Positions 19,934 through 24,459 of a DNA stretch of 56,596 nucleotides are shown piece after piece. The stretch lies in contig JAJZFH010000036.1 of assembly GCA_021805445.1 (NCBI GenBank), positions 1 to 56,596 on the forward strand, in the 5' to 3' direction. This DNA comes from Pseudomonadota bacterium (GTDB taxonomy: Bacteria > Pseudomonadota > Gammaproteobacteria > Burkholderiales > Ferrovaceae). The notes under the pieces are model-generated. The model was not told the DNA's origin and did no database searches. It saw only the letters and a list, made by a program, of their open reading frames with translations. The position numbers were made by a program, and so were the translations under genes. Positions within the stretch are counted from its first letter, which is position 1, and every line of letters starts with the position of its first letter.

Positions 19934-21211
19934 CTAGAACTTGTAGATGCCTTGCAACCCGTAGGTAGTCATGGATTGCGAGAGAATTCCGTTGGATTCC
20001 GCAAACAATCCTTTGTCGGCGCGATCCTCCCGAATTTCACCGCGCAACTCAAACGCCTTGACGGGGGCATACCCGAGGGTCAGGGTGGCTTCGCGCACCG
20101 TATTCGGTCCGACCAGCACCCCATAACCACCCGTATCGATCCCGGTCGCCAAGGCCGCGCCCGAATTGTCCCGCACTTCTTCCGCCCGGAATGAGACCCG
20201 ATACTGCTCATTGATTTGATAGTTCAGGTACCCGGCCACCCCCCAGTAAGTTTCCGTACCCACCTGATTGAGTCCGATGATTTCATTCTGTTGGGATGCA
20301 TGATCCGCATTCAGGATAAAGGTCAGGGACTGGGTCAGATTGGTGGTGAACACCATGTCCAGCAAGGTGCGGTTCCCCGCCCGCGCATTGGCCCCGCCAT
20401 ACGCCGTAAAGGTGTTGGCAGTGAACATGTTGCTGGCATTGACCCCCGCCGTAGCAGGCGCCAGCACCGTTTCATCCCCGGTATAGATGTCGAAGAGCAG
20501 GGACGTATCCTTGGTAAAGGCCTCGTTCACCGCCATTTCCACCGTCTTGGAGGCCGTCATCCCCGTCACCTGATCCCAGCCGTTATTTACCCCCATGGTC
20601 AGGGTCGTGGCTTCGGTCACGTTGTTGATGGCGCGCAACCCCGTATGGGTAAAGGGAATCTTGCCAAAGAGAATAGACCGGGTGATATTGGTATCCGCAC
20701 CGCTGTCGATGTATTCCACCCCGGCCAAGGTGGTATATTTCCCGCCCATCACCGTCCAGGCATTCTTGGCATACTGCATGAACGCCTGGGTCAGATCGAA
20801 GTAGCCACCACTGCCTGCGGTGGTGTTGTTGGGATTGAGATTATTTCCGGAACAGGCTCCATAAGAGCAAATGACCCCGGCATTGGAACCCGCCGTCAGA
20901 TTGACCAGCCCACCGATCCCTTGGGTCGGCAGTTTGGAAATCGTGACCGATGCCTGATTCAGTGCAAAGGAATTCTTGGTGGTGTCGAATACCTGCACGC
21001 TGGGATCCGGCGTTTGAGAGTGCGCCATATAGCCCATGTCCAGATAACCTTTCACTTCAATATTGGCTTTCTTGAACAGTTTGCCCAAACTCATTTCGGG
21101 CTCGGCATCCGATTCTTCATCCTTGGCCTGGGACAGGGTACTGGCCCCCAGACACAGGACGGCGGCAAACAGACTGAAATAACTTCGCGGATTCTTGTTG
21201 ATGAACGTCAT
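19934..21211 (-). CDS. BBP2-like outer-membrane porin, paralogue A
   Basis: A 425-residue exported barrel. The signal peptide ends after LSQA (about 30), then comes an acidic segment (KDEESDAEPEMS) and strand-rich sequence (GYLDMGYMAH, SVTISKLPT, REATLTLGYAPVKAFELRGE) ending in IYKF with a terminal Phe. It resembles the OmpL-like BBP2 putative porins. CSYGACSGNN (about 114) contains two Cys that could form a disulphide in a constriction loop. It is clearly paralogous to the product at 23191-24459. It has its own sigma-54 promoter and lies just downstream of amtB. Substrate unknown; a nitrogen compound is inferred from context. Confidence 0.82.
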   Translation of the reverse strand: MTFINKNPRSYFSLFAAVLCLGASTLSQAKDEESDAEPEMSLGKLFKKANIEVKGYLDMGYMAHSQTPDPSVQVFDTTKNSFALNQASVTISKLPTQGIGGLVNLTAGSNAGVICSYGACSGNNLNPNNTTAGSGGYFDLTQAFMQYAKNAWTVMGGKYTTLAGVEYIDSGADTNITRSILFGKIPFTHTGLRAINNVTEATTLTMGVNNGWDQVTGMTASKTVEMAVNEAFTKDTSLLFDIYTGDETVLAPATAGVNASNMFTANTFTAYGGANARAGNRTLLDMVFTTNLTQSLTFILNADHASQQNEIIGLNQVGTETYWGVAGYLNYQINEQYRVSFRAEEVRDNSGAALATGIDTGGYGVLVGPNTVREATLTLGYAPVKAFELRGEIREDRADKGLFAESNGILSQSMTTYGLQGIYKF

Positions 21212-21316
21212 GGTTTTTCCTCGTCATATTTTTTTGTAGAGATCACGCTAAAACGGGTAAAAACCTTTTCCTCCCCCTTCTGCGTTGGGAAAGTATTGAC
21301 GCACATCAAGATACAA

Positions 21317-21336
21317 ATTGCAACAGTTTTGCCATA
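21317..21336 (-). promoter_or_regulatory. sigma-54 promoter of porin A
   Basis: On the - strand TATGGCAAAACTGTTGCAAT has GG and GC separated by exactly 10 bp, with strong -24 TGGCA and -12 TTGCA matches. Transcription should start near 21308, giving a leader of about 97 nt. The -24 box coincides with the T-tract end of the amtB terminator. No convincing NtrC dyad lies nearby: the region 100-140 bp upstream is amtB coding sequence. Confidence 0.75.
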
Positions 21337-21360
21337 AAAAAAGAGGCACCCGGAGGTGCC
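21337..21360 (-). terminator. Rho-independent terminator after amtB
   Basis: On the - strand GGCACC, a TCCG loop and GGTGCC form a hairpin followed by TCTTTTTTTATGG. It ends the porin B-glnK-amtB transcript 27 bp past the amtB stop and abuts the porin A promoter. Confidence 0.88.
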
Positions 21361-21387
21361 CCAATTCCCTGACGGAGAGAGGAAAGA

Positions 21388-22812: not shown

Positions 22813-22823
22813 TTTCATTCTCC

Positions 22824-23162
22824 TTATAGGGCATCCGAGCCGGTTTCACCGGTCCGGATCCGCACCACATGTTCCAAATCGTACACAAAGATCTTTCCAT
22901 CCCCGATCTTGCCTGTGGTGGCCGACTTTTCGATGGCTTCGATGACCTGCTCCAGTAATTCCGTCTTGATGGCCGCTTCCAACTTGACCTTGGGCAAAAA
23001 ATCCACCACGTATTCAGCTCCTCGATACAGTTCGGTATGCCCCTTTTGCCGCCCAAACCCTTTCACTTCGGTAACGGTGATTCCCTGTACGCCTATGGCA
23101 CTCAGAGCTTCCCGCACCTCATCCAACTTGAAGGGTTTGATGATTGCAGTCACGAGTTTCAT
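22824..23162 (-). CDS. glnK: PII signalling protein GlnK
   Basis: A 112-residue PII protein that senses 2-oxoglutarate, ATP/ADP and uridylylation, and blocks AmtB when nitrogen is ample. Tyr51 (the uridylylation site) lies in the T-loop ELYRGAEY, the B loop reads [11 protein letters not shown] and the C-loop ends [14 protein letters not shown]. The pairing with amtB marks it as the GlnK rather than the GlnB type. It is placed between porin B and amtB with no terminator on either side. Confidence 0.96.
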
Positions 23163-23190
23163 GATCTATCCTCTTTGAGTTTTCAATTAG

Positions 23191-24459
23191 TTAGAATTTA
23201 TAAATGCCTTGCAGACCATAAGTCACCATACTTTGGTACAGGGTTCCATTGGACGAGGCGAAGATTCCCTGATCCGCCCGGTCTCCCCGCAGTTCGGCAC
23301 GCAGTTCAAAGTCCTTGACTGGCGCATACCCCAAGGTCAACGTCGCTTCCCGCACAGTGTTGGGGCCTGGCAGCGTTCCCGGTGCCGCCACTGCCACACC
23401 CGACTCATCCTTCAATTGTTCCGCCCGGAATGATACCCGATATTGATCGTTGATCTGATAGTTCAGGTAGGCCGCCAACCCCCAGTAAGTCTCCGTCCCC
23501 ACCTGGTTCGGCGTGGCACCGATCACCACATTTTGCTGACTGGAATGATCCGCATTGAGAATGAACGTCAGGGACTGTGTCAGATTGGACGTAAAGACCA
23601 TATCCAGCAAGGTGCGATTACCGCTTCTGACCCCGTAAACACCAGGAACCCCTGCATTGGCCGTATACATGTTGGTAATGGTCCCCGCCGGAATGTTACC
23701 CGCCCAGTCGAGACTGGTGGGCACCGTTTCAGCCCCGCTGTACACATCGAACAACAGCGAAGTATCCTTGGTAAAAGCCTGGTTGATGGCAAATTCCGCG
23801 GTCTTCGAAGTGGTCATGCCCGTCACCTGATCCCACCCATTGTTGACCCCCATGGTCAAGGTCGTCGCATCCGTCAAAGTGTTCACGGCACGCACCCCCG
23901 TATGGGTAAAGGGGCTGTGGCCGTAGAGGATGGAACGGGTAATGTTGGTATCCGCCACACTGTTGGGAACTTCCACGCCCGACATGGAATTGAACTTCCC
24001 GCCGATCAGGGTCCAGGGACCGGTGGCATATTGCATATACGCCTGAGTGGGGTCAAAGTTTCCTCCTGATCCCATGGTGGAGTTGTATTGATTCAGGTTA
24101 TTTCCGGAACAGGCGCCATAGGAACACAGGTAACCCGCATTACTCCCGGCGATCAAATCCACCAGCCAGCCCATCCCTTCCTTGGGGGTTTTGGATATCG
24201 TGATGGAGGCCTGGTTGAGACTGAAGGAATTTTTGCTGGTATCAAATACCTGAACGTTGGGATCAGGCATCTGGTTGTGGCCGATGTACCCGGCATCCAG
24301 ATAGCCGGAGACATCGATACTGGAGGCCTTGAACAACTTGGCGATACTCATTTCCGGTTCTGCATTGGTTTCGTCCTCCTTCGCGTTGGCAGCCGTCATC
24401 ATCCCCATCATCAAAAAACAAGAGGTCAATTTGAGCGGGAAGGGCAGTGGGGCTTTCAT
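23191..24459 (-). CDS. BBP2-like outer-membrane porin, paralogue B
   Basis: A 422-residue exported barrel, the first gene of the porin-glnK-amtB transcript. The signal peptide ends after TAANA (about 26) and the mature start KEDETNAEPEMS parallels paralogue A. The two share most positions along the chain, including VQVFDT.KNSF.LNQAS, the two-Cys loop CSYGACSGNN, TMGVNNGWDQVTGMT and the terminal YGLQGIYKF. Divergence is greatest around residues 235-265. AAGGAG precedes the start. The gap to glnK is 28 bp without a hairpin. A sigma-54 promoter and NtrC-like dyads lie upstream. Function is inferred: nitrogen-induced outer-membrane channel. Confidence 0.82.
   Translation of the reverse strand: MKAPLPFPLKLTSCFLMMGMMTAANAKEDETNAEPEMSIAKLFKASSIDVSGYLDAGYIGHNQMPDPNVQVFDTSKNSFSLNQASITISKTPKEGMGWLVDLIAGSNAGYLCSYGACSGNNLNQYNSTMGSGGNFDPTQAYMQYATGPWTLIGGKFNSMSGVEVPNSVADTNITRSILYGHSPFTHTGVRAVNTLTDATTLTMGVNNGWDQVTGMTTSKTAEFAINQAFTKDTSLLFDVYSGAETVPTSLDWAGNIPAGTITNMYTANAGVPGVYGVRSGNRTLLDMVFTSNLTQSLTFILNADHSSQQNVVIGATPNQVGTETYWGLAAYLNYQINDQYRVSFRAEQLKDESGVAVAAPGTLPGPNTVREATLTLGYAPVKDFELRAELRGDRADQGIFASSNGTLYQSMVTYGLQGIYKF

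Follow-up and report, generated by a model that had tools for sequence, protein, structure and literature searches.

General porins are usually assumed to be the route by which ammonium passes the outer membrane. Here we describe a locus in a 56,596-nt stretch of DNA from a member of the Ferrovaceae (assembly GCA_021805445.1, contig JAJZFH010000036.1; the whole stretch is called the window below) in which a gene for an outer membrane porin, porin A, precedes glnK and amtB, the genes for a PII protein and an ammonium transporter, and a gene for a paralogous porin, porin B, follows them. Porin A, glnK, and amtB probably form a single nitrogen starvation operon in which porin A raises the supply of ammonium to AmtB, a reading to which we assign a probability of roughly 0.6.

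A described operon of similar layout is nlmA-glnK-amtB (orf1glnKamtB) of Herbaspirillum seropedicae, which is NtrC dependent and strongly induced by nitrogen limitation, a condition under which NlmA is detected in membrane extracts (PMC3023670). The order of a membrane protein gene, glnK, and amtB is the same as that in the window, where we infer NtrC control. NlmA is not termed a porin in the sections of that paper drawn on here, and it may belong to the TorF family (discussed below); these sections also do not describe a second copy past amtB, unlike the window with its porin B. In the planctomycete Kuenenia stuttgartiensis, KSMBR1_3177, a porin of the same Pfam family as the window porins (BBP2), is highly upregulated under ammonium limitation and the authors suggest that it increases ammonium influx; the portion of the paper cited here does not mention an amtB gene linked to it (PMC7438415). 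Given the Herbaspirillum operon and the Kuenenia suggestion, the statement in a first-pass annotation of this DNA that outer membrane pores for ammonium are not normally described is too strong.

Other porins under nutritional control are also known. In Pseudomonas, NtrC acts directly on the porin gene oprD (PMC13029640). BCAL3473 of Burkholderia cenocepacia resembles porin A as read here in that it is an outer membrane porin induced by nitrogen depletion; its solutes are arginine, tyrosine, tyramine, and putrescine (PMC10117139). In the acidophile Acidithiobacillus ferrooxidans, the putative porin gene feoP is found in an operon with an inner membrane uptake system, feoABC, although that system serves iron and not nitrogen (PMC2621215). 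The open-licence literature, which leaves subscription journals largely outside, yielded no account in which a barrel gene generally precedes glnK-amtB. What is new here is the breadth of the layout, its common promoter design, and the filling of one slot by two porin families.

Organization of the Locus

The locus (positions 19934-24459 of the window) consists of four genes, all on the minus strand, that are transcribed in the order porin A, glnK, amtB, porin B. The first-pass annotation was right to place four genes on one strand, but its order of porin B-glnK-amtB-porin A swapped the middle pair, since the plus strand reads porin B, amtB, glnK, porin A. The first gene of the putative operon, porin A (23191-24459, minus strand), encodes a BBP2 outer membrane barrel of 422 amino acids. 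It is followed after 28 bp by glnK (22824-23162, minus strand; 112 amino acids) and, 5 bp past glnK, by amtB (21388-22818, minus strand; 476 amino acids). Porin B (19934-21211, minus strand; 425 amino acids) begins 176 bp past amtB. A terminator-like hairpin of eight pairs, six of them GC, followed by a run of seven T residues is located past amtB (21343-21362, minus strand). This suggests that the first three genes are a single operon and that porin B is a separate unit. The region contains 7 terminator-like sites versus 4.7 expected, so a terminator match alone carries little weight. A terminator-like inverted repeat, with its T run read in the sequence, is also found past porin B (19892-19909, minus strand).

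BBP2 (PF07642) is the only Pfam family matched by either porin (E values up to 0.001 considered), with E values of 1.6e-48 for porin A and 2.1e-53 for porin B, scores of 166.2 and 182.2 bits against a gathering score of 26.2, and coverage of profile positions 2-339 of 339. The porins share 69% identity, and a search of the 1.97-Mb assembly with porin A matched no gene other than these two. They end in the same C-terminus, TYGLQGIYKF, and both contain a CSYGAC loop with two cysteines, C112/C117 in porin A (24109-24126, minus strand) and C115/C120 in porin B (20852-20869, minus strand). The earlier description of two paralogous BBP2 porins with a common two-Cys loop and a common C-terminus is thus borne out. 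AmtB matches Ammonium_transp and TIGR00836, and GlnK matches P-II and NF007946.

BBP2 and TorF Barrels at glnK-amtB Loci

BBP2 matches were collected from two samples. In the order, 33 of 200 genomes had matches (47 rows), and in the phylum, 38 of 398 did (41 rows). Together these give 85 distinct rows, all of which were inspected in the DNA, although related genomes contribute rows that do not count as independent. BBP2 is found no more than 1 kb from glnK or amtB in 22 of 47 rows from the order and 22 of 41 rows from the phylum (20 of 45 and 20 of 39 without the two porins of the window). In distinct rows, 42 of 85 are linked in this way, and they come from 15 families in the two samples. 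The conservation of BBP2 beside amtB or glnK, which the first-pass annotation had proposed as a check, is therefore seen well beyond this genome, and the idea that the adjacency is specific to one strain is rejected. The BBP2 gene is upstream of glnK on the same strand in 37 of the linked rows, downstream of amtB on the same strand in 3, and on the opposite strand in 2.

The linked genes also have a common promoter design. Of the 40 linked genes scanned (two more lack upstream DNA), 32 have a sigma-54-like site before them when one mismatch is allowed, whereas dinucleotide shuffles predict 0.55. The same scan of all 43 unlinked genes found a single site, in G311, where 191 bp of contig remain past the porin. 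An NtrC-like palindrome with at most three mismatches precedes 10 of the 37 linked genes scanned for it (0.12 expected from shuffles of single bases rather than dinucleotides) and none of the 36 unlinked genes, out of 43, that were taken. Five linked rows were omitted from the NtrC scan, two because they are short and the others being G456, G338:C1, and G342, which lack a sigma-54-like site, and the omission of these last three favors the proposed reading. Co-regulation is strongly supported by this comparison of upstream regions, and the view of the locus as a nitrogen starvation module that extends to the outer membrane gains good support from the number of families, from both kinds of site, and from the Kuenenia gene cited above.

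A sample that was not chosen by its porins leads to a similar picture. AmtB was searched for in 60 genomes of the order and was matched in 54 of them, in 63 stretches, 57 of which have glnK beside amtB. A barrel gene heads 38 of these 57 glnK-amtB loci; the barrel is TorF (Gcw_chp, PF09694) in 32 and BBP2 in 6. The window's own row is scored in this sample as having no sigma-54-like site, the DNA scanned being that upstream of the downstream porin. TorF is a Pfam family other than BBP2 and consists of shorter proteins, yet it occupies the same slot on the same strand as linked BBP2 and likewise has a sigma-54-like site. Judged by this sample, a barrel gene is a common, but not universal, first member of glnK-amtB loci. 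The 30 best-scoring TorF genes of the order, which are not a random sample and have no shuffle control, include 26 with glnK, amtB, or both in the surrounding stretch, and 25 of these 26 have a sigma-54-like site. Among named AmtB loci, the best 80 of at least 590, a distance of 1 kb or less separates the locus from BBP2 in 9 cases and from TorF in 12. This set leans towards near relatives; its BBP2-linked members include Thiomonas and Acidithiobacillus marinus.

The gene neighborhoods bear on the kind of porin that is involved. Porin A may be a non-selective porin that is merely co-regulated, so that starvation raises the general permeability of the outer membrane and ammonium is one of many solutes. 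Weak selectivity is common among porins, and the nitrogen-depletion-induced porin of B. cenocepacia serves the several solutes listed above (PMC10117139); the pore analysis described below could not show a selectivity filter either. Yet in 42 of 85 distinct rows the partner is repeatedly glnK-amtB and not genes for amino acid or peptide uptake, and a second barrel family, TorF, occupies the same slot. We regard the non-selective porin as rather unlikely, though it is the strongest of the rivals.

A further alternative is that these barrels are porins for organic amines or polyamines and that their linkage to amtB reflects shared nitrogen control only. It draws on six loci (L143, L145, L146, L148, L172, and L173) in which divergent, unlinked BBP2 genes are found in clusters for polyamine uptake and breakdown. 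The best or near-best named models for their neighbors are PotF, PotG, PotH, PotI, and PuuC, mostly below curated cut-offs. The BBP2 proteins of these clusters are distant relatives whose genes lack sigma-54-like sites, whereas the linked genes are often only tens of bases from glnK, in an operon without polyamine genes, and a polyamine porin at glnK-amtB loci therefore seems improbable. The polyamine clusters could fit a wider role of the family with nitrogenous cations, or the family could simply be versatile.

BBP2 genes also occur in other settings. In L161 and L163, BBP2 is directly 3' of amtB on the same strand and has no sigma-54-like site of its own. In L059 (7602-8808), BBP2 past amtB is split over two overlapping frames, which may represent a broken gene or a sequencing error. 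In L164 and L166, BBP2 adjoins genes that look like those for sulfate adenylyltransferase subunits, which may be a further setting for a nutrient porin.

Putative Promoters of Porin A and Porin B

A putative -24/-12 element with an upstream NtrC site precedes porin A. The sigma-54-like promoter (TGGCACAGTCTATGCT; 24601-24616, minus strand) has an NtrC-like palindrome (CGCACCAATTTGGGGCA; 24668-24684, minus strand) 68 bp 5' of it. Both elements are kept in the window, in L051 (metagenome-assembled genome [MAG] DX2.bin19), and in G166, and in the latter two they persist amid changed surrounding sequence; the palindrome of L051 is GCACC-N5-GGTGC. A 14-base inverted repeat (24667-24716; 93% complementary, arms 22 nt apart) overlaps the NtrC-like site of porin A.

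The sigma-54 consensus was entered by hand, and the window motifs at 24601-24616 and 21319-21334 have one mismatch each. At up to two mismatches the motif is found 41 times in the whole window versus 30.5 expected, a weak enrichment that is reached in 3 of 100 shuffles. Motif matches alone were thus rejected as proof of a sigma-54 promoter, and the comparison across genomes was used instead. By that comparison the motif 5' of porin B (TGGCAAAACTGTTGCA; 21319-21334, minus strand) is a doubtful promoter. An 11-bp indel falls inside it in L051, which is otherwise nearly identical there, and G166 has different DNA at its position. No NtrC-like site was found before porin B within the stretch scanned, and a simple scan of the minus strand from 19800 to 24850 found no sigma-70-like promoter for it. 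On this comparison, porin B is not accepted as a sigma-54 gene. The earlier assignment of a sigma-54 promoter to each porin is consequently supported for porin A, where the site is conserved in three genomes, and doubtful for porin B.

The genome contains both rpoN and ntrC. The ntrC gene, the likely activator of the porin A operon, is inside the window (2849-4273, plus strand; TIGR01818 match of 678.7 bits, over the cut-off), behind a glnA-like gene (262-1671, plus strand; named by reading) with a sigma-54-like motif upstream at 163-178 and an ntrB-like gene (1731-2834, plus strand; named by reading and position). The ntrB-like and ntrC regulators and another likely target, the glnA-like gene, thus share the window with the porin locus, at 163-4273.

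Predicted Structure and Pore Charge

OprP and OprO are starvation-induced nutrient porins. Their fold, that of the phosphate starvation porins of Pseudomonas aeruginosa, is the closest solved fold to porin A, which is predicted to be a 16-stranded outer membrane barrel. An AlphaFold2 model from 11 sequences has 16 long strands and one 3-residue element, with a predicted local distance difference test (pLDDT) score of 73.5 and a predicted template modeling (pTM) score of 0.73, and the C-terminal residue is an aromatic one (F). By eye, the N-terminus resembles a signal peptide. OprP and OprO match this model with a Z score of 26.9, compared to about 24 for general porins (Foldseek, VIA). The alignment with OprP covers 316 residues at a root mean square deviation of 3.2, and identity to OprP and OprO is 14 to 16%. 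A sequence search of the Protein Data Bank gave one chance match only (E = 0.57). OprP and OprO take phosphate, whereas ammonium is proposed here, and the window porins match BBP2 only and not the sequence family of OprP and OprO. A fold predicted to be common with these porins does not identify the solute. It does speak against the idea that the barrel is no solute pore at all and instead aids envelope remodelling or sensing during nitrogen starvation, as the model matches known channel porins over nearly the whole barrel; we consider that idea highly improbable.

The charge of the barrels was also compared. Pore-facing residues, assigned by a rough guess from strand parity, have a net charge of -2 to -6 in all 31 rows of a tree of barrels (described below). 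Median barrel charges are -9 for linked rows (33 of 42 rows), -7 for polyamine-type rows (11 rows, some by eye), and -3 for the others (16 rows). Barrel charge is not accepted as proof of cation selectivity since the ranges of the three groups overlap widely.

The CSYGAC loop falls in a low-confidence stretch of the AlphaFold2 model. It is present in 6 of the 31 tree rows, and 2 others have a comparable pair of cysteines; all eight are Ferrovum-like, while other rows carry cysteines elsewhere. With this restriction, the two-Cys loop is rejected as a general functional element.

Proposed Role in Ammonium Supply

In the proposed mechanism, scarce fixed nitrogen would lead NtrC and sigma-54 RNA polymerase to turn on porin A-glnK-amtB. 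Porin A would be made as a 16-stranded outer membrane channel that raises the supply of ammonium to the periplasm, AmtB would carry the ammonium over the inner membrane, and GlnK would gate AmtB. Porin B, which arose from porin A by a later duplication, would supplement this function or provide a variation on it. We infer from the DNA that the bacterium expresses the operon when starved of nitrogen, and the solute that matters would be ammonium or some other small cation containing nitrogen. At acid pH, ammonium is almost wholly NH4+. A nifH gene that scores above its family cut-off is present in the genome and a match to the urease alpha subunit is absent, which makes ammonium a sensible main solute; urea as the main solute is disfavored by the lack of a urease alpha match.

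Several observations weigh against this role. Slightly more than half of the distinct BBP2 rows (43 of 85) are unlinked, and no sigma-54-like site is found before the linked rows of alphaproteobacterial type, G456, G338:C1, and G342. In the AmtB-anchored sample, no barrel was found beside glnK in 19 of 57 loci, among them two without room on the contig and L243, which has TorF before another amtB. A sigma-54-like site is still present in 13 of these 19 barrel-less loci, which ties the promoter to glnK-amtB and not to the porin as such. None of 14 control genomes, Escherichia coli included, has a BBP2 match, and ammonium uptake thus does not depend on a BBP2 porin. The pore analysis showed no feature of an ammonium-selective pore, and the acidic lean is also seen in the three tree rows that are unlinked.

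Origin of the Second Porin

The tree of 31 barrels unites porins A and B from the window, L051, and G166 in a single clade (100/100) that splits into an A branch and a B branch. Outside this clade are the copies from the JA12-like genus and that of L052, which has a single porin and a metH-like gene straight after amtB. This placement indicates that the bracket of two porins is a local duplication on an old, widespread theme. Porin B is a lineage-specific duplicate, and the doubling of the porin is, by the genomes compared, confined to this lineage. The complete order of porin A, glnK, amtB, porin B is found in L051. Bracketing by two porins, as described in the first-pass annotation, is seen in the window and L051 and is not supported as a conserved feature.

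In G166, glnK-amtB was not seen adjoining a porin because the contigs end there. Of three G166 contigs (C39, C99, and C94, corresponding to L034, L035, and L036), two begin with the same 5' end of porin A with different upstream DNA, a pattern that may reflect a further porin copy or a rearrangement. On C39, porin B is preceded by what looks like the 3' part of a different gene, which may come from a mobile element.

Ferrovum JA12 is an iron oxidizer of acid mine drainage (PMC4725956), and the window genome likewise is that of a Ferrovum-like acid mine drainage bacterium. The JA12-like genomes G042 and G087 show a different expansion, porin-glnK-porin-glnK-amtB. In the tandem of this form at L031 (4670-9637) and L032 (4282-9240), stretches from two genomes of the same family, the first porin has no sigma-54-like site in either.

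Implications

The recurrence of a regulated barrel gene before glnK-amtB suggests that some bacteria open a dedicated route through the outer membrane when nitrogen is short. A stronger proposal is that the glnK-linked BBP2 and TorF barrels are ammonium-selective outer membrane channels, the nitrogen counterpart of OprP. We offer it tentatively and lean towards doubting it. If it is true, many proteobacteria would run a two-membrane system for ammonium uptake with a starvation-induced outer gate, and the entry of ammonium across the outer membrane would not be left to general porins.

If a regulated porin is the standard first member of glnK-amtB loci in a large part of the order, outer membrane permeability would become part of nitrogen starvation physiology, and two poorly characterized porin families, BBP2 and TorF, would gain a testable function. 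The outer membranes of acidophiles face extreme proton and metal loads, and a dedicated nitrogen channel would explain how such bacteria may take up nitrogen without a general leak.

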